Shown: positions 20,293-26,868 of the stretch, one piece after another
How positions within the stretch are numbered: the first letter of the stretch is position 1
Layout: each line of letters begins with the position of its first letter
Assembly: GCF_000344615.1 (NCBI RefSeq)
Contig: NZ_KB467824.1
Span: 5,467,125 to 5,531,124 of the forward strand
Source: Janthinobacterium sp. CG3
GTDB lineage: Bacteria > Pseudomonadota > Gammaproteobacteria > Burkholderiales > Burkholderiaceae_D
Reading direction: 5' to 3'
DNA: 64,000 nt
Notes under the pieces: model-generated
The model's input: the letters and a program-made list of their open reading frames with translations, nothing else
What the model was told of the DNA's origin: nothing
Database searches by the model: none
Translations under genes and position numbers: made by a program

Positions 20293-20802
20293 TTAGCGCG
20301 GCGCGTTGACGTCGATCTTGGCGTGTTCGCCCATCCCCTGCGGCCGCTCGCCGGTCACCGCGGCCTTCGCCATCGCGTACAACTGGGCCATTTTGCTCAA
20401 ATGGGAATCCCAGTATTCGGCCGTTTCGATGCTGACCTTGATCAAGGCCAGATGCGGGTCATCCAATCCTTCCGGAAACCAGGCTTTGACGATGGGATTC
20501 CACATTTCCTCGGCTTTTGCCCGGTCTTTCAGCAATTCGGCGTGGCCCGACACCGATACGTACAGGCTTTCCTTAATGTCGCTGAAACTGACGTTCACCT
20601 GCGGATTGGCCTGCAGTTCGTGGGTGAACGGCGACTTGTCCGAGGTAAAGAACCAGATCTGCCCTTGGCCGTCGATCTGCTGCTGCGTCATCGGCCGGCT
20701 GGTCAGCCGCCCGGCGACGTTGCTCGTCGTGAGCATGCCAAATTCCACATGCTTGATTTTCGCCTTGATGGCGTCGAGTTGGTCTTGTGCGAATTGCGTC
20801 AT
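20293..20802 (-). CDS. Pyridoxamine 5'-phosphate oxidase-like general stress protein
   Basis: A 169-residue split-barrel flavin-binding protein of the general stress protein 26 type. The opening region GMLTTSNVAGRLTSRPMT, the strand IWFFTSDKSPFTHEL and the VNVSFSD segment are characteristic of this family; a YWDS motif lies near the C-terminus. Members bind FMN or F420, but the reaction is rarely known. It is not the PdxH biosynthetic enzyme. It is convergent with the stress-type genes upstream and divergent from the iron-regulated operon. Confidence 0.85.
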   Translation of the reverse strand: MTQFAQDQLDAIKAKIKHVEFGMLTTSNVAGRLTSRPMTQQQIDGQGQIWFFTSDKSPFTHELQANPQVNVSFSDIKESLYVSVSGHAELLKDRAKAEEMWNPIVKAWFPEGLDDPHLALIKVSIETAEYWDSHLSKMAQLYAMAKAAVTGERPQGMGEHAKIDVNAPR

Positions 20803-20961: not shown

Positions 20962-20992
20962 TTGACTTTATAAATGATAATCATTATCATTT
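20962..20992 (+). promoter_or_regulatory. Promoter with overlapping Fur box
   Basis: TTGACT (20962-20967) and TATCAT (20985-20990) are spaced by 17 bases. A perfect palindrome with 10-base arms (AAATGATAAT and its complement, centre 20982) covers the spacer and the -10 box and contains the Fur core ATGATAATCATTATCAT. Iron-bound Fur would block this promoter. It drives the operon beginning at 21123. Confidence 0.88.
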
Positions 20993-21122
20993 ATCTTTCT
21001 TGCCAGTCTTCTTGCCAGTCGTAGTCGTTGCTCCTTAGAATGGATCGGCCAGCCACGGTCGCAGGCTGAACAATTTTTTGATGAAGGATAGCAATGACGC
21101 ATACCGCCTTAGGTGACTGCCT

Positions 21123-21770
21123 GTGAACCCGCAGGCGGGCAGTTCGAACCGCAACGCCGGCCTCGCCGTCTGGCTGAAGAATTTGCATCAGTGGCATTGG
21201 ATCAGTTCGGCGTTATGCCTGCTGGGCATGCTGCTGTTTAGCGTCACCGGCATCACGCTCAACCACGCCTCGCAGATCGAGGCCAAGCCCGCCGTCACGC
21301 GCAAGAACGCGACGCTGCCGGGTCCGCTGCAAGCCGAGTTGCGCCAGTTCGCCGCCGGCCACGACGGCGCCAAGGAGCCCTTGCCGGCCGGCGCCGAACG
21401 CTGGTTGAGCGACACCTGGTCGCTCCAAGCCGGCGGCCGCGTCGCCGAGTGGTCGGTCGACGAGGTCTATCTGCCGTTGCCGAAGGCCGGCGGCGACGCC
21501 TGGGTGCGCATTGGCCTGGAGGACGGCGCCGCCGAGTACGAGCTCACCGACCGCGGCTGGATTTCCTGGTTGAACGACGTGCACAAGGGCCGCAACACCG
21601 GCACCGCCTGGAACTGGTTCATCGATATGTTCGCCGGGGCTTGCCTGGTGTTTTGCCTGACCGGTTTGCTGATTCTGAAGTTCCACGCGGCCAACCGGCC
21701 GTTCACCTGGCCGATGGTGGGCCTGGGCATCGTGATTCCGTGCGTCATCGCTATTTTGTTTATCCACTAA
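21123..21770 (+). CDS. PepSY-associated transmembrane protein
   Basis: A 215-residue inner-membrane protein with a GTG start behind AGGTGA. A membrane helix at about residues 28-48, a periplasmic domain of about 110 residues and two C-terminal helices (about 165-187 and 195-214) match the PepSY_TM family. Histidines stand at the membrane edges (LHQWHW, LNHAS, NDVHKGRN), suitable for haem or other cofactor ligation as in related transmembrane reductases. As first gene of a Fur-controlled operon with DUF2271, ApbE and a flavin reductase, it probably carries electrons across the membrane. A 10-codon frame (21094-21126) with its own ribosome site overlaps the start. Confidence 0.82.
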   Translation: MNPQAGSSNRNAGLAVWLKNLHQWHWISSALCLLGMLLFSVTGITLNHASQIEAKPAVTRKNATLPGPLQAELRQFAAGHDGAKEPLPAGAERWLSDTWSLQAGGRVAEWSVDEVYLPLPKAGGDAWVRIGLEDGAAEYELTDRGWISWLNDVHKGRNTGTAWNWFIDMFAGACLVFCLTGLLILKFHAANRPFTWPMVGLGIVIPCVIAILFIH

Positions 21771-21824
21771 TGTCTCCAATCAGTTTCAGCATTCTTCGAT
21801 TCATTTTATTTTGACAGGCACACC

Positions 21825-22340
21825 ATGAAATTACGCTATTCCATCGCGCTCAGCATTCCGCTGATGAGCGCCTCTGCGATGGCGGCCGATCTGGCCCTCA
21901 AGCTTGAAATTCCGCAACTGAACGTCGCTGAATACCACCGTCCCTACGTGGCGGTGTGGCTCGAGGGCGCCGATCAAAAAGTGCTGGCCAACCTGTCCGT
22001 GTTGTACGACGTCAAAAAGAAAGACAACGCCGGCACCAAGTGGTTGAAGGACATGCGCCAGTGGTGGCGCAAGAGCGGGCGCGACCTGGCCATGCCGATG
22101 GACGGCGTCAGCGGCGCCACGCGCGCGCCCGGCGAACACACATTGAGTTTCCCTGGCGCCAAGGCGGCGCTGGACAAGCTGCCGGCCGGCGATTACCAGG
22201 TGGTAATCGAGGCGACCCGCGAGGCCGGTGGCCGCGAACTGGTGCGCGTACCGTTCCAGTGGCCGCCGAAGTCGGCGCTGGCGCTACCCGCCAAAGGCAA
22301 GGAAGAACTCGGTGCCGTCGCTGTCCAACTCAAACCGTAA
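21825..22340 (+). CDS. DUF2271 exported protein, predicted covalent flavoprotein
   Basis: A 171-residue protein with a cleavable signal peptide (cut after SASAMA, residue 20). The rest matches DUF2271: a small beta-sandwich opening LKLEIPQLNVAEYHRPYVAV. Residues 93-99 read DGVSGAT, matching the D-x-x-S/T-G-A-T motif at which ApbE attaches FMN through a phosphoester to threonine, as in NqrC, so Thr99 is the predicted acceptor. The ApbE gene lies two genes downstream. I infer a periplasmic flavin carrier that receives electrons from the PepSY protein. The family has no assigned name here. Confidence 0.85.
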   Translation: MKLRYSIALSIPLMSASAMAADLALKLEIPQLNVAEYHRPYVAVWLEGADQKVLANLSVLYDVKKKDNAGTKWLKDMRQWWRKSGRDLAMPMDGVSGATRAPGEHTLSFPGAKAALDKLPAGDYQVVIEATREAGGRELVRVPFQWPPKSALALPAKGKEELGAVAVQLKP

Positions 22341-22352
22341 GACTGGAAAACC

Positions 22353-23177
22353 ATGTTCATGAATCTGAGTAAGCCGCTGGCGGCCCTGGCATTGGCCGGG
22401 CTGGCATTGAATGCGCAGGCGCACCGTCCCTGGATGGTGCCGTCGAGCTCCATGGTCGAGTCGAAAGATCCTTGGGTGACGGTCGACGCCGCCATTTCCG
22501 AAGACCTGTTCGACATCGACCACCAGGCGCTGAAGCTCGACGCGCTGGAAATTACCGGTCCTGACGGCGCCCGCGTGCAGCCGGAAAACAGTCTCACCGG
22601 CCGCCTGCGCAGTGTGTTCGACGTGAAAATGCTCAAGCCGGGTACCTATAAGGCCGCCATCGTTTCGCACAACATGATGGCCAGCTACAAGCTGAACGGC
22701 GAGTCGAAGCGTTGGCGCGGTTCCGAAGAGGCGTTCGCCAAGGACATCCCGGCCGGCGCGCAGGACGTCAAGGCGACCCGCATGCTAAGCCGCCTGGAAA
22801 CCTTCTTTAGCGCCAATAGCACCAACGACGCGGTCTTCAAGCCAAGCGGTGCCGGCCTTGAACTGGTGCCGTTGACCCATCCGAACGATATGCGCGCCGG
22901 TGAAAAAGCCAGTTGGCGTTTCCTGCTCGACGGCAAGCCGGCGGCCCACCAGGCCTTCAGTCTGGTGGCGGGCGGGGTGCGTTACCGCGGCGTGCTGGGC
23001 GAGATCCGCCTGAGCACCGACGCCAAGGGCGAGGTCACGTTTACGATCCCGGCCGCCGGCATGTATTTCCTGAGCAGCAGCTGGCCGGCCGCCGCGCCCG
23101 CCGTTGCCGACCAGCCCGCGGTGCAGCCGCCGCGTCGCGTCAGCTATTCCGCGACCGTCGAAGTGCTGCCCGAATAA
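22353..23177 (+). CDS. DUF4198 periplasmic protein
   Basis: A 274-residue exported protein. The signal peptide should be cut after AQA (residue 23), leaving mature His24 (HRPWMVPSS) as N-terminal residue. The rest is beta-rich and matches DUF4198, a family often found beside metal-uptake genes. A free N-terminal histidine is a copper-binding feature in CopC-like and LPMO proteins, so metal binding is plausible but not shown. Twelve bases separate it from the DUF2271 gene, placing it firmly within the Fur-regulated operon. Its exact task, perhaps metal capture at the cell surface, is inferred. Confidence 0.78.
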   Translation: MFMNLSKPLAALALAGLALNAQAHRPWMVPSSSMVESKDPWVTVDAAISEDLFDIDHQALKLDALEITGPDGARVQPENSLTGRLRSVFDVKMLKPGTYKAAIVSHNMMASYKLNGESKRWRGSEEAFAKDIPAGAQDVKATRMLSRLETFFSANSTNDAVFKPSGAGLELVPLTHPNDMRAGEKASWRFLLDGKPAAHQAFSLVAGGVRYRGVLGEIRLSTDAKGEVTFTIPAAGMYFLSSSWPAAAPAVADQPAVQPPRRVSYSATVEVLPE

Positions 23178-23198
23178 CCCTTTCTATAAAGACCGACG

Positions 23199-24218
23199 AT
23201 GCGCCGGGTACTCCTGCCTCACCATTTTTCCGCGCACCCGGCGCCCGCCGGCGGCACCATCCGCGACTGCAGCGGCGCCAGCATGGGCACCACCTGGTCG
23301 GTACGGCTGGTCGCGGCGGGCCGCTGCGAGCATCTGCAAGAGGGTTTGCAGCAGCAACTCGACGGCGTCGTCGCGCAGATGAGCCATTGGTTCGACGACT
23401 CCAGCCTGTGCCGCTTCAACCGCGCCCCGGCCGGCACCTGGCACAGCCTGCCGGCCGGGTTTTTCGAGGTGCTGGCGTTTGCCTTGACGGTGTCGCGGCA
23501 GAGCGGCGGCGCCTACGATCCCTGCGCCGGGGCGCTGGTCAACCGCTGGGGCTTCGGCCCGACCGGACGTTTCGACCAGCCCGGCTTTGCCGCGCCGACG
23601 CCGGGCCAGGCCGCGGCGCTGTTGGCGCAACACCGCGCCCGCAGCGTCGAACTCGACCCGGTGTCGCGCCGCGCGCGCCAGCCCGGCGGCGCGCTGCTCG
23701 ACCTGTCGGCGGTGGCCAAGGGCTATGCCGTCGACCTCCTGGCGGGTTATCTGGAAGGGCAGGGTGTGCGCCATTACCTGGTCGAGGTCGGCGGCGAGTT
23801 GCGCGGCGCGGGCACCAAGCCCGACGGCCAGCCGTGGTGGGTCGCGCTGGAGCAGGTTGACGGCGCCGATGAAGGCGCCGCCGGCGCTCCCGGCCAGATG
23901 GTGCTGGCATTGCACGGCTTGGCGGTCGCCACCTCCGGCGACTACCGGCGCTTCTTCGAACAGGACGGGCGGCGTTTCCCCCATACCATCGACCCGCGTA
24001 GCGGCGCGCCGATCGCCAACCTGCTCGCTTCGGTCACGGTGGTGCATGCCGCGTGCATGGCGGCCGACGCCTGGTCGACCGCGCTGACCGTGCTTGGCCT
24101 CGATGCCGGCCTGGCGCTGGCCGAACGGCTGGGGCTGGCCGCGCGCTTCGTGCTGCGCGACGGCGCCGGCTTCAGCGAGCGCCTGAGCAGCCACTTGCAA
24201 GGCATGCTCGACGCATGA
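23199..24218 (+). CDS. apbE: FAD:protein FMN transferase (ApbE)
   Basis: A 339-residue flavin transferase. Family motifs are clear: SGASMGTTWSVRL at the start, GGAYDPCAGALVNRWGFG, DLSAVAKGYAVD, VEVGGELRG, TSGDYRRFFEQDGRRFPH followed by TIDPRSGAPI, and the magnesium-site region MAADAWSTAL. It splits FAD and transfers FMN to threonine in partner proteins; the obvious partner is the DUF2271 protein encoded nearby. The N-terminus has no signal peptide or lipobox, unlike the usual exported lipoprotein ApbE, so either it acts in the cytoplasm before export or the true start differs. Its stop overlaps the reductase start. Confidence 0.88.
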   Translation: MRRVLLPHHFSAHPAPAGGTIRDCSGASMGTTWSVRLVAAGRCEHLQEGLQQQLDGVVAQMSHWFDDSSLCRFNRAPAGTWHSLPAGFFEVLAFALTVSRQSGGAYDPCAGALVNRWGFGPTGRFDQPGFAAPTPGQAAALLAQHRARSVELDPVSRRARQPGGALLDLSAVAKGYAVDLLAGYLEGQGVRHYLVEVGGELRGAGTKPDGQPWWVALEQVDGADEGAAGAPGQMVLALHGLAVATSGDYRRFFEQDGRRFPHTIDPRSGAPIANLLASVTVVHAACMAADAWSTALTVLGLDAGLALAERLGLAARFVLRDGAGFSERLSSHLQGMLDA

Positions 24219-25579
24219 TGTTGACCTCCGATCCCACCCGGCTGGCGCTGCTGGCCGGTTTGACGCTGGGTTACGCGGCGGTGTGCCTGGCGCCGTATCT
24301 GCGCCAGCGCCGCAAGCGCCGCGCCGCGCAGCGCGAACGCGCCGCGTTGGCGCAGGCGCCGGCCTGGATCGTCGCCTATGCCAGCCAGACCGGCAACGCC
24401 GAGGAGCTGGCCGGGCAAACCGCGCAGACGCTGCGCCTGGCCGGGCTGCCGGTGCGCCTGTGCGCGCTGGCCGAACTGGCCGGCGCCGACTTGCAGGGCG
24501 CCGAGCGCGTGTTGTTCCTGGTCAGCACTTACGGCGAGGGCGACGCGCCGGACAACGCCGCCGCCTTCCTCGATCGGGTAATGGGCGCGCCGCTGCCGCT
24601 GGCGCAGTTGCACTACGCCGTGCTGGCGCTGGGCGACAGCGCCTACGCCCGGTTTTGCGGCTTCGGCCGGGCGCTCGACCAGTGGCTGGCGGCGCAGGGC
24701 GCGGCGCGGCTGTTCGCGCGCGTGGAAGTGAACCGCAGCGCGGCCGCCGCCATCGAACCGTGGTTCCGCCAGCTGAGCCACCTGGCCGGTACCAGCGACG
24801 CGCCGGACTGGAGCGCGCCGGCCTTCGAACAGTGGCGCCTGGCCGAGCGGCGCCTGCTCAATCCGGGCAGCGCCGGCGCGCCGGTCTACCATATCGCGCT
24901 TGACCGCGGCGCCGGCGCGCTGCCGCAATGGCATTCGGGCGACCTGGTGCAGGTGGCGGCGCCGGCCGACCCGGCCCGGCCGCGCGAATATTCGATCGCC
25001 TCGATCACCCAGGACGGCCGGGTGCATTTGCTGGTGCGCCTGCACGCGCATCCCGACGGCGGCCTGGGGCTGGCGTCGGGATGGCTGGCGGTACAGGCCG
25101 GCATTGGCGAGCCGGTCCAGCTGCGCCTGCGCCAGCACCGCCGTTTCCGCCTGGAAGACAACGCCGCGCGGCCCTTGATTTTGATCGGCAACGGCAGTGG
25201 CATCGCCGGCTTGCGCGGGCATTTGAAAAGCCGCGCGCTGGCCGGGCAGAAGCGCAACTGGCTGTTTTTCGGCGAGCGCAACGCCGCCCACGATTTCCAT
25301 TACCGCGACGACATCGAGCAATGGCAGGCCAGCGGCGCGCTGGCGCGCCTGGACCTGGCGTTTTCGCGCGACCAGGCGCAGCGCTTGTATGTGCAGGACC
25401 GGCTGCTGGGCAACGCCGACGAGGTGGCGCAGTGGGTCGGGCAGGGCGCGGCGATTTATGTTTGCGGCAGCCTGAACGGCATGGCCGGCGGCGTCGACGC
25501 GGCGCTGCGGCAGATCCTGGGCCGCGCCGCGCTCGACGCGCTGGCCGCCGAGGGGCGCTACCGCCGCGATGTGTATTAA
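24215..25579 (+). CDS. Membrane-anchored flavodoxin/FAD reductase (sulfite reductase alpha-like)
   Basis: A 454-residue protein. An N-terminal helix (ALLAGLTLGYAAVCLAPYL) anchors it in the inner membrane. Then come a flavodoxin domain (YASQTGNAEELAG, STYGEGDAPDNAAAF, LGDSAYARFC), an FAD domain (PREYSIASI) and an NAD(P)H domain (LIGNGSGIAGLRG, FFGERN, VCGSLNGMAGGVD). The order is that of diflavin reductases but without the large connecting insert. The start overlaps apbE (ATGA; a second ATG follows at 24218). It should move electrons from NAD(P)H via FAD and FMN to the PepSY membrane protein, powering the periplasmic flavoprotein. Confidence 0.87.
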   Translation: MMLTSDPTRLALLAGLTLGYAAVCLAPYLRQRRKRRAAQRERAALAQAPAWIVAYASQTGNAEELAGQTAQTLRLAGLPVRLCALAELAGADLQGAERVLFLVSTYGEGDAPDNAAAFLDRVMGAPLPLAQLHYAVLALGDSAYARFCGFGRALDQWLAAQGAARLFARVEVNRSAAAAIEPWFRQLSHLAGTSDAPDWSAPAFEQWRLAERRLLNPGSAGAPVYHIALDRGAGALPQWHSGDLVQVAAPADPARPREYSIASITQDGRVHLLVRLHAHPDGGLGLASGWLAVQAGIGEPVQLRLRQHRRFRLEDNAARPLILIGNGSGIAGLRGHLKSRALAGQKRNWLFFGERNAAHDFHYRDDIEQWQASGALARLDLAFSRDQAQRLYVQDRLLGNADEVAQWVGQGAAIYVCGSLNGMAGGVDAALRQILGRAALDALAAEGRYRRDVY

Positions 25580-25638: not shown

Positions 25639-26868
25639 TTAGACCGCCGCTACCGGTTCGATGTCACCGCTCACTTCCTGCAGCCCGCGCGCCAGGCTGG
25701 AGATGCTCGGATTGTCGATGAACACGCAGCGCTTGCCGGTGCGTTTGCAGTGGTCCTTGACACGCCAGTAGGCGCTGTGGCTGATGCAGCCGGTCTGGCA
25801 AATCACCAGGTCGGCCGCCGCCAAGCTCGAATCGAGCATGTTGGCGTTGTCCTCCAGGCCGCCGTCGTGGTGCGCGAACTGCGCGCCAACCCGCTCGATC
25901 AGCGCGCGGTAGGTGGCGACGTTGCCGCTGCGCCCGCCCACGCACAGTACGCTCCGGTCGACCAGGCGGATCGGCATCTTCATGCCGCGCGCCGGCTCCG
26001 GTTTGGTGGGCGCCGGCGCCGGCGGGGCGTCCGGGGCGCGCGCCTGGGTCTGCTTCAAGTCGACGATCTGCATGCGCAAGTCGCGCTCGCGCCGGTCCAT
26101 CTGCGCCAGCCGCTGCGCCAGCCGGGTGCGCGACTCCAGTCCCGGAATCGACTCCCGCAATTGCGCCAGTTGCGCGCGCAAGCCGTCGATCACGCTGTCC
26201 TTGCCGATCGCCTGCGCGCGCGCCTGCATCAGCAAACCGTCGGTGCGCTCCAGCTCGGTGCTTTTGTCGGCCAGCAGGGCCTGGCTGCGTTGTTGCAGCT
26301 TGGCCAGCTCGCGCGCCATGGCGGCGTTTTCCTCGACCAACTGGTTGAACTTGCCCATGTCGGCGCGCACGCACGCGCCGGCCTGGTGCTGGATCATGTG
26401 CAGGTCGCGGCACATGCGCTCCTCCAGCTCGGCGTCGCAGCGCGGGTGCGTCAAGCCGGCCCAAAAGGCGCCGGCGACGTCGCCGCCCGCCACCGCCGCC
26501 TGCCACAGCTGCGCCACCTGGTCGGCGCTCTTGGCGCCGCGGAAGCGCTGAACCACGTGGGCGTAGCGCCGTTCGAGTTCCTTGTGCAAGGCTTCGGACA
26601 GGCGGTTGCGGGTGCCGCACTCGGTCACCGCGCCGACGTGTACCTCGTAGTCGTCGGCCAGTACGCGCCCGCCGGTCATCTTGCCCACCAGCTTGCGCAG
26701 GCCGCCCAGCGGCAGGCCGACCCCGACCAGCGGACAGTGGCAGGTGTGCGAGAGTTCCCAGATGCGCCGCCGGCGCGACGTCAGCGCGGCGGGCGCGGCG
26801 TCGTCGCCGGCGCAATTGCTGATCACCGGCGGGTGCGTGGTCGCGGTGGCTTGGTCTTTGTCGCACAT
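25639..26868 (-). CDS. DUF2325 domain protein
   Basis: A 409-residue protein. The C-terminal 100 residues are the DUF2325 domain (VLCVGGRSGNVATYRALIER, DLVICQTGCISHSAYWRVKD), a Rossmann-like unit. The middle (about residues 180-290) is a coiled coil rich in Glu, Gln, Arg and Leu, joined by a Pro/Ala linker. The N-terminus has a conspicuous HTCHCP cluster at residues 41-46 and more Cys/His residues (ERMCRDLHMIQHQAGACV), suggesting metal or haem binding. It is the last gene of a minus-strand set with a hypothetical gene and hemP, downstream of a Fur-like site. The biochemical role is unknown. Confidence 0.8.
   Translation of the reverse strand: MCDKDQATATTHPPVISNCAGDDAAPAALTSRRRRIWELSHTCHCPLVGVGLPLGGLRKLVGKMTGGRVLADDYEVHVGAVTECGTRNRLSEALHKELERRYAHVVQRFRGAKSADQVAQLWQAAVAGGDVAGAFWAGLTHPRCDAELEERMCRDLHMIQHQAGACVRADMGKFNQLVEENAAMARELAKLQQRSQALLADKSTELERTDGLLMQARAQAIGKDSVIDGLRAQLAQLRESIPGLESRTRLAQRLAQMDRRERDLRMQIVDLKQTQARAPDAPPAPAPTKPEPARGMKMPIRLVDRSVLCVGGRSGNVATYRALIERVGAQFAHHDGGLEDNANMLDSSLAAADLVICQTGCISHSAYWRVKDHCKRTGKRCVFIDNPSISSLARGLQEVSGDIEPVAAV

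Follow-up and report, generated by a model that had tools for sequence, protein, structure and literature searches.

Clusters of genes around PepSY-like membrane proteins have been surveyed by Meheust et al. (2021, PMC8238504), who report 3220 of them, 2833 with DUF2271 and 1500 with DUF4198, and propose that they serve iron reduction. In Caulobacter, the genes CC_3059-3063 are annotated as a transporter, DUF2271, DUF4198, ApbE and a sulfite reductase flavoprotein; changes of 12.25 to 51.11 are given for them in two table columns, promoter fusions were induced under low iron and derepressed in the absence of fur, and CC3059 is reported to be bound by Fur (PMC3751524). Insertions in this locus (CCNA_03155-03159), for which a PepSY-family membrane protein is named, lower fitness in ethylenediaminetetraacetic acid (EDTA; PMC12004947). 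Furthermore, expression of DUF4198-DUF2271 gene pairs rises in Alteromonas when iron is limiting (PMC7190382). Here, we analyse a five-gene operon with these families at positions 20962-25579 of a 64,000-nucleotide stretch of DNA from Janthinobacterium sp. CG3 (hereafter the window; positions 5467125-5531124 of contig C1 in a genome of 6.27 megabases).

The operon is real, well conserved in close kin and ordinary in kind. We consider it probable that its five genes, repressed together by Fur, encode a transenvelope ferric reductase. An earlier interpretation made from the letters of the window (the sequence-only reading) had put forward this assembly as an inference of its own. The idea of transenvelope electron transfer is right in outline and is already in print; since the assembly has been described before and interpreted likewise, the interpretation stands whereas its novelty does not. 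What this analysis adds is the question of the compartment in which the flavin transferase ApbE works, together with a likely metal role for the DUF4198 protein.

Fur box and gene order among relatives

The operon is preceded by a sigma-70-like promoter on the plus strand (TTGACT-17-TATCAT, 20962-20990; 10 of 12 matches in a consensus scan). This promoter overlaps a palindrome of 25 base pairs with arms of 12 base pairs around C20982 (20970-20994, read from the sequence), at whose centre lies the Fur box core AATGATAATCATTATCATT (20973-20991). The perfect Fur palindrome over a good promoter that the sequence-only reading had described is thus present. The core is the sole exact match to the pattern in the whole genome, where the reversed pattern gave no match. 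It is also the only match in the window at up to three mismatches, with 0.00 expected from shuffled sequences, and we therefore rule out a chance occurrence. Other listed sites in the genome, with one to three mismatches, are found upstream of fur, feoB, a TonB gene and three TonB receptors, and further near-matches precede an IucA/IucC siderophore synthetase, a ferritin-like gene and a sigma-70-family factor (sites were assigned to genes by the nearby open reading frame). As these near-matches precede iron genes, the pattern does mark iron genes in this genome. At the operon the box lies over the promoter, as is expected for a member of the Fur regulon.

Downstream of the box, five open reading frames follow on the plus strand, as claimed before, and their families were confirmed by Pfam. 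They encode a PepSY_TM_like_2 inner-membrane protein (21123-21770; PF16357 264 bits, PF03929 34 bits), an exported DUF2271 protein with the Sec-type signal MKLRYSIALSIPLMSASAMA (21825-22340; PF10029 169 bits), an exported DUF4198 protein (22353-23177; Pfam DUF4198 168 bits), an ApbE flavin adenine dinucleotide (FAD):protein flavin mononucleotide (FMN) transferase without a recognisable signal peptide (23199-24218; PF02424 261.5 bits) and a membrane-anchored CysJ-like diflavin reductase (24215/24218-25579; Flavodoxin_1 98 bits, NAD_binding_1 37.5 bits). The successive genes are separated by 54, 12 and 21 nucleotides, and the last two overlap in ATGA.

To compare relatives, we used DUF2271, which occurs in 56 of 145 genomes within the family and in 81 of 397 genomes sampled across the phylum (75 above the cut-off). 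The regions compared comprise 54 from the family (L044-L097) and 77 from the phylum (L133-L209). A further, named set holds the best 80 of 317 relatives and thus leans to close kin. Among the matches listed, the nearest named DUF2271 belongs to a Janthinobacterium metagenome genome (90% identity). All five genes occur in the same order and on the same strand in each of the 48 high-scoring family loci, that is, the fetched loci with a DUF2271 of at least 150 bits (two such matches, in G074 and G113, lie outside this set). The complete set in order is also found in 62 of the 80 named loci; the remainder are without ApbE or the reductase, some of them at a contig edge. These counts are based on stop positions; by the start of the open reading frame they are 44/48 and 61/80, lowered by over-long starts. 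A box with at most one mismatch lies upstream of PepSY in 23/48 family and 22/80 named loci, compared to a mean of about 7.9 mismatches for shuffled sequences. The fetched flanks contain a TonB-receptor-like open reading frame in 21/48 family, 32/59 phylum and 36/80 named loci (raw counts, with no background rate).

A second architecture (type II) combines DUF2271, a fusion of PepSY and reductase (about 740 residues, ending in a diflavin part) and ApbE. Judging by size and place, the N-terminal part of this fusion would be PepSY. Type II was found at L092, at L094-L097 and at most of L192-L209, and its ApbE is signal-less as well. A TonB receptor is present at one of the 18 loci L192-L209, and that locus (L207) is not of type II. 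At three family loci (L044, L045 and L046), the DUF4198-DUF2271 pair is tandemly duplicated at the operon.

Proposed electron path and probable metal protein

The reductase combines a flavodoxin (FMN) domain with an FAD/NADPH domain, as CysJ-like diflavin proteins do, and has an N-terminal membrane anchor that was read by eye. It aligns with CysJ-type structures through the C-terminus YRRDVY. The best NCBIfam model is cysJ, whose curated cut-off is not reached (263.6 bits versus 668.15; 453 residues versus a 597-position model). The protein is thus related to CysJ, but it is not CysJ. It is probably the electron entry point.

For the PepSY protein, three transmembrane helices are predicted (AlphaFold2 model, mean predicted local distance difference test score 91.0). 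It is encoded next to ApbE and a signal-bearing DUF2271, which is the arrangement of the PepSY-like flavinylation systems. Its histidines H25, H154 and H188 are conserved in 49/49 sequences of the family set, H215 in 48/49 and H48 in 44/49; in the named alignment A3, H25, H154 and H215 are found in 38/38 and H48 and H188 in 34/38. These conserved residues sit close to the predicted helix ends; the sequence-only reading had placed histidines at the membrane faces. FoxB, a PepSY-like protein, binds two hemes via histidines (PMC11334425). Because of this and of the position of the conserved histidines, the membrane step probably involves heme, and PepSY_TM_like_2 is, by analogy, probably a heme-bearing transmembrane electron carrier. 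We also looked for direct kinship with FoxB: a profile search returned no PepSY-like chain, Foldseek gave a weak match, and FoxB is missing from the second list, which excludes nothing. PepSY_TM proteins near TonB receptors have been interpreted as siderophore permeases in Alteromonas (PMC7190382). If the protein studied here were such a permease and not a reductase, DUF2271 and DUF4198 would be periplasmic binders of siderophores or metals. We regard this as very improbable, as the PepSY protein has three predicted helices only, the operon encodes a flavin transferase along with the diflavin reductase, and the solved structure of the PepSY-like FoxB contains two heme sites (PMC11334425).

The presumed periplasmic acceptor is DUF2271. 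It contains the motif DGVSGATR, whose threonine T99 is kept in 52/52 aligned family sequences and which corresponds to the motif of flavinylated DUF2271 (PMC8238504). Flavinylation by ApbE has been demonstrated for the DUF2271 protein of Amantichitinum (PMC8238504). By analogy, DUF2271 here is predicted to carry a covalent FMN on T99. No other substrate in the operon suggests itself, as PepSY, DUF4198 and the reductase are without the motif [S/T]GA[S/T]. The sole such motif among the remaining sequence is in ApbE itself (SGAS at residues 25-28, beside its MGT core), and most N-termini in the ApbE listing do not share it (by inspection, uncounted). At some phylum loci (L135, L140, L141, L148, L163 and L169), the DUF2271 motif has the variants TGPT, TSPT, TQPT or SSAT, in which the threonine is kept and [S/T]GA[S/T] is broken.

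The mature DUF4198 protein is predicted to begin with His24 (cleavage site judged by eye), and thus with a histidine, as DUF4198 metal proteins do. H24 is found in 50/52 family rows, and the first position is histidine in 35/35 rows of alignment A2, whose rows were chosen and cut at such a site. The model of the protein matches the metal-binding Zcp (9mhj-9mhn) and the Ideonella Ni-DUF4198 (9gcb), with an identity of 18% in both alignments. As it resembles solved metal-binding proteins and has a conserved histidine that comes first once the signal is cleaved, DUF4198 may carry a metal; we consider it probably a periplasmic metal-binding protein. The Ideonella protein binds nickel through the N-terminal histidine and His18 of the mature chain, with a dissociation constant of 18 nM (PMC12537917). 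His18 is absent here, for which reason we rejected the Ideonella nickel type: position 18 is a tryptophan that is nearly invariant in A2. Conserved candidates for the second ligand are H34 and H153 (31/35 each in A2). Among the structures, the PDB entries 9mhi-9mho are tabled as phosphoribosylglycinamide formyltransferase; those matched by the DUF4198 model are titled Zcp metal-binding, and the molecule name looks wrong.

From these parts we propose the following scheme. Under iron shortage, Fur would leave the box and the operon would be expressed. In the membrane-anchored diflavin reductase, NADPH would reduce first FAD, then FMN, and electrons would traverse the membrane via PepSY_TM_like_2, probably over two bis-histidine hemes. 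They would reach the covalent FMN on T99 of DUF2271 in the periplasm, which may reduce free or chelated ferric iron. DUF4198, with its N-terminal histidine exposed by signal cleavage, would hold or pass on metal. Fe(II) would enter the cytosol most likely via FeoB, whose gene also follows a Fur-like box in this genome. Three elements had been proposed for the window, namely an electron path, covalent FMN on DUF2271 and a link to iron; each has backing from sequence, conservation or publications on relatives.

Several observations weigh against this scheme. In the broader sample of the phylum, fewer than half of the loci have all five genes in order (23/59, L133-L191) and the box is weak, with at most one mismatch in 1/41 loci and at most three in 6/41. 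In the window genome, no TonB receptor directly adjoins the operon; the neighbouring genes at 20293-20802 (PNPOx-like protein) and 25639-26868 (DUF2325 protein), both on the opposite strand, have no obvious tie to it. FoxB (7abw) is a weak Foldseek match to the PepSY model (E-value 0.04, TMq 0.24, rank 5). In the literature searched, we found no report of ferric reductase activity for this assembly. Lastly, the DUF4198 relative prefers nickel and two of the Caulobacter genes are in a zur list, so that metals other than iron come into question.

The last point leads to another explanation: reduction might serve copper, nickel, zinc or cobalt, or envelope repair, and Fur control would then reflect a link to iron stress. 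The nickel affinity of the Ideonella relative would fit this explanation, as would the match of the DUF4198 model to Zcp, which was solved with Zn, Cu and Co, and the listing of CC3060 and CC3061 as changed in a zur mutant (PMC4176598). We nevertheless find it unlikely, given the exact Fur box that is conserved in close kin, the frequent TonB-receptor neighbours, and the replacement of the nickel ligand His18 by tryptophan with H34 and H153 as the conserved candidates. Furthermore, the Caulobacter locus shows a fitness defect in EDTA and is upregulated in iron-starved mutants (PMC12004947). Iron thus stays the favoured metal.

An ApbE without a recognisable export signal

The ApbE of the window aligns with solved FMN transferases, in the case of 5mgy over residues 24-326. 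It retains the stretches HTIDPRSG and ADAWSTAL, that is, HxIDPxSG and ADxxST, which we take to serve FAD and magnesium binding. The protein starts with MRRVLLPHHFSAHPAPAGG, reaches the MGT core within 30 residues and has no hydrophobic stretch before it. Reading of this N-terminus revealed no Sec or lipoprotein signal of the kind that marks exported ApbEs. A mis-called start that hides a signal is ruled out by an in-frame TAA just upstream. The ApbEs of Andreprevotia sp. IGB-42 (L266), a possible close relative of Amantichitinum, and of Caulobacter segnis (L282) are likewise without a signal. A recurrent N-terminal motif, RVLxP, precedes the core in the window ApbE, in these two proteins and in many type I ApbEs (uncounted).

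We examined whether this absence is general using the 45 residues that lead up to the MGT core. A signal was scored by two criteria: a longest run of at least eight residues free of D, E, K, R, H, N, Q and P, and a mean Kyte-Doolittle value of at least 1.9 over 12 residues. The controls were the best loci from a search of 60 genomes (L291-L319), except for L306 and L307, which lie beside DUF2271, plus the two other ApbEs of the window genome. Only one of 169 separate DUF2271-linked ApbEs passes both criteria (0/53 family, 1/47 phylum, 0/69 named), compared to 26 of 29 controls. As the loci are mutually related, these counts are not independent. Of the three failing controls, L099 and L304 look signal-less, and the core of L305 was misplaced by the script. 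The cores of two further controls, L309 and L311, were set by a fallback. By run length alone, 20/169 linked ApbEs pass (5/53 family, 9/47 phylum, 6/69 named), which by eye are non-signals except for L151. When the same test is applied to the DUF2271 proteins, 166/185 pass by run length and 72/185 pass both criteria; the second criterion is thus strict on DUF2271, and the joint test would not pick up ApbE signals of that weak kind. The N-termini are often short: even from the most upstream start, at most 30 residues precede the core in 97/169 linked ApbEs versus 7/29 controls. Since short N-termini occur in controls too, they alone do not exclude a signal.

Because no signal is recognisable, the simple picture in which both ApbE and its substrate protein are periplasmic cannot be derived from this sequence. 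ApbE would most likely attach FMN to the DUF2271 precursor while this is still in the cytosol. For the DUF2271/PepSY iron systems in general, we suggest that a cytosolic ApbE loads FMN on DUF2271 in the compartment that produces FAD and that the unfolded, flavinylated precursor then passes through Sec. This would apply to two groups of ApbE, unlike the exported lipoprotein ApbEs, whereas in lineages that have a fusion or no local ApbE the reaction would take place outside the cytosol. We give this suggestion roughly an even chance. Flavinylation can run in a cytosol, as signal-truncated DUF2271 and ApbE co-expressed in Escherichia coli gave flavinylation (PMC8238504). A cytosolic substrate is also known, the soluble fumarate reductase of Klebsiella; most ApbEs are exported and some are cytosolic (PMC12052999). 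In passages of the literature on flavinylation and ApbE, figures and supplements apart, we found no mention of a signal-less ApbE that serves an exported substrate. Tat export of DUF2271 would be a simple route to cytosolic flavinylation; we rejected it, as an RR motif precedes the mature part in just 13/185 proteins.

Alternatively, flavinylation may be periplasmic as usual, with the operon ApbE reaching the periplasm by another way or with a different, exported ApbE acting. Several observations favour this explanation. An exported ApbE is encoded in the window genome at C1:5437207, next to what by eye look like nos genes, so that cytosolic loading is not forced here. In genomes with an ApbE-free operon, the best ApbE is exported in 20/20 examined (the best match per genome in 20 of 23 such genomes, with G357, G268 and G323 left out). 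Six natural ApbE-DUF2271 fusions carry signals (6/6 by run length, 5/6 by both criteria). The sole linked ApbE that passes both criteria, L151, has the clear lipobox of a lipoprotein and lies in an otherwise ordinary operon. Furthermore, the authors of PMC8238504 term their Amantichitinum ApbE construct signal-peptide-truncated, which speaks against cytosolic loading in that species.

Two observations argue the other way. Of the 33 phylum genomes that encode a separate type I ApbE, 28 yielded no ApbE besides this linked one (type II 3/14), and all 28 linked ApbEs fail at least one of the two signal criteria. The absence of a signal also spans two supported groups of the ApbE tree (112 rows, midpoint root): type I forms one group (39 rows, support 100/92) and type II a separate one (19 rows, 100/99). 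The 29 exported ApbEs form a third group near type I (99/98). Two rows of this tree, L140 and L141, were marked as signal-bearing by a cruder rule (run of at least 10) and are by eye without a signal. On balance, we hold periplasmic flavinylation to be a plausible but somewhat less favoured explanation than cytosolic loading. The alternatives left are FMN loading before export, an exit of ApbE by an unrecognised route, or the service of another ApbE where one is present.

A second possible iron-linked flavinylation operon lies elsewhere in the window genome (G000:C1 about 3579006-3583600; L099 7007-11561). It has a Fur-like site with three mismatches and genes for a CCP_MauG di-heme peroxidase-like protein, Porin_O_P, an FMN_bind protein with a signal and the motif SGAT, a signal-less ApbE and DUF4405.

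Comparison with known systems

For Oxalobacteraceae-like bacteria, the operon is a clean and well-conserved case of what is probably a flavin-based ferric reductase. In the texts cited here, ApbE flavinylation of exported proteins is treated as extracytosolic and as needing FAD outside. If cytosolic loading before export is true, it removes the need for FAD export, and Sec would be shown carrying a flavin-bearing chain.

A close likeness is to Caulobacter crescentus, which belongs to another class of bacteria than the host of the window. Its locus CC_3059-CC_3063 has the same annotated gene order and is Fur-repressed, and its mutants are unfit in EDTA; the likeness is one of annotation. Fur control, the EDTA phenotype and the flavinylation of DUF2271 have thus been shown by others in relatives, and we extend them to this operon by analogy. 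The PepSY clusters of Meheust et al. (2021) share PepSY, DUF2271 with [S/T]GA[S/T], DUF4198 and ApbE with the operon (PMC8238504). In passages of that paper, figures and supplements apart, the missing signal of ApbE is not discussed and a separate diflavin gene is not singled out.

FoxB, HiuB and VciB are PepSY-like membrane proteins that have been tied to ferric or siderophore reduction (PMC11334425, PMC12424826, PMC8238504). According to PMC8238504, VciB has no association with flavinylation components; hiuB is found together with genes for a TonB receptor and for a small membrane protein (PMC12424826). Compared to these three, the PepSY protein described here is short, has three predicted helices, and is encoded in an operon that itself supplies the flavin chain.

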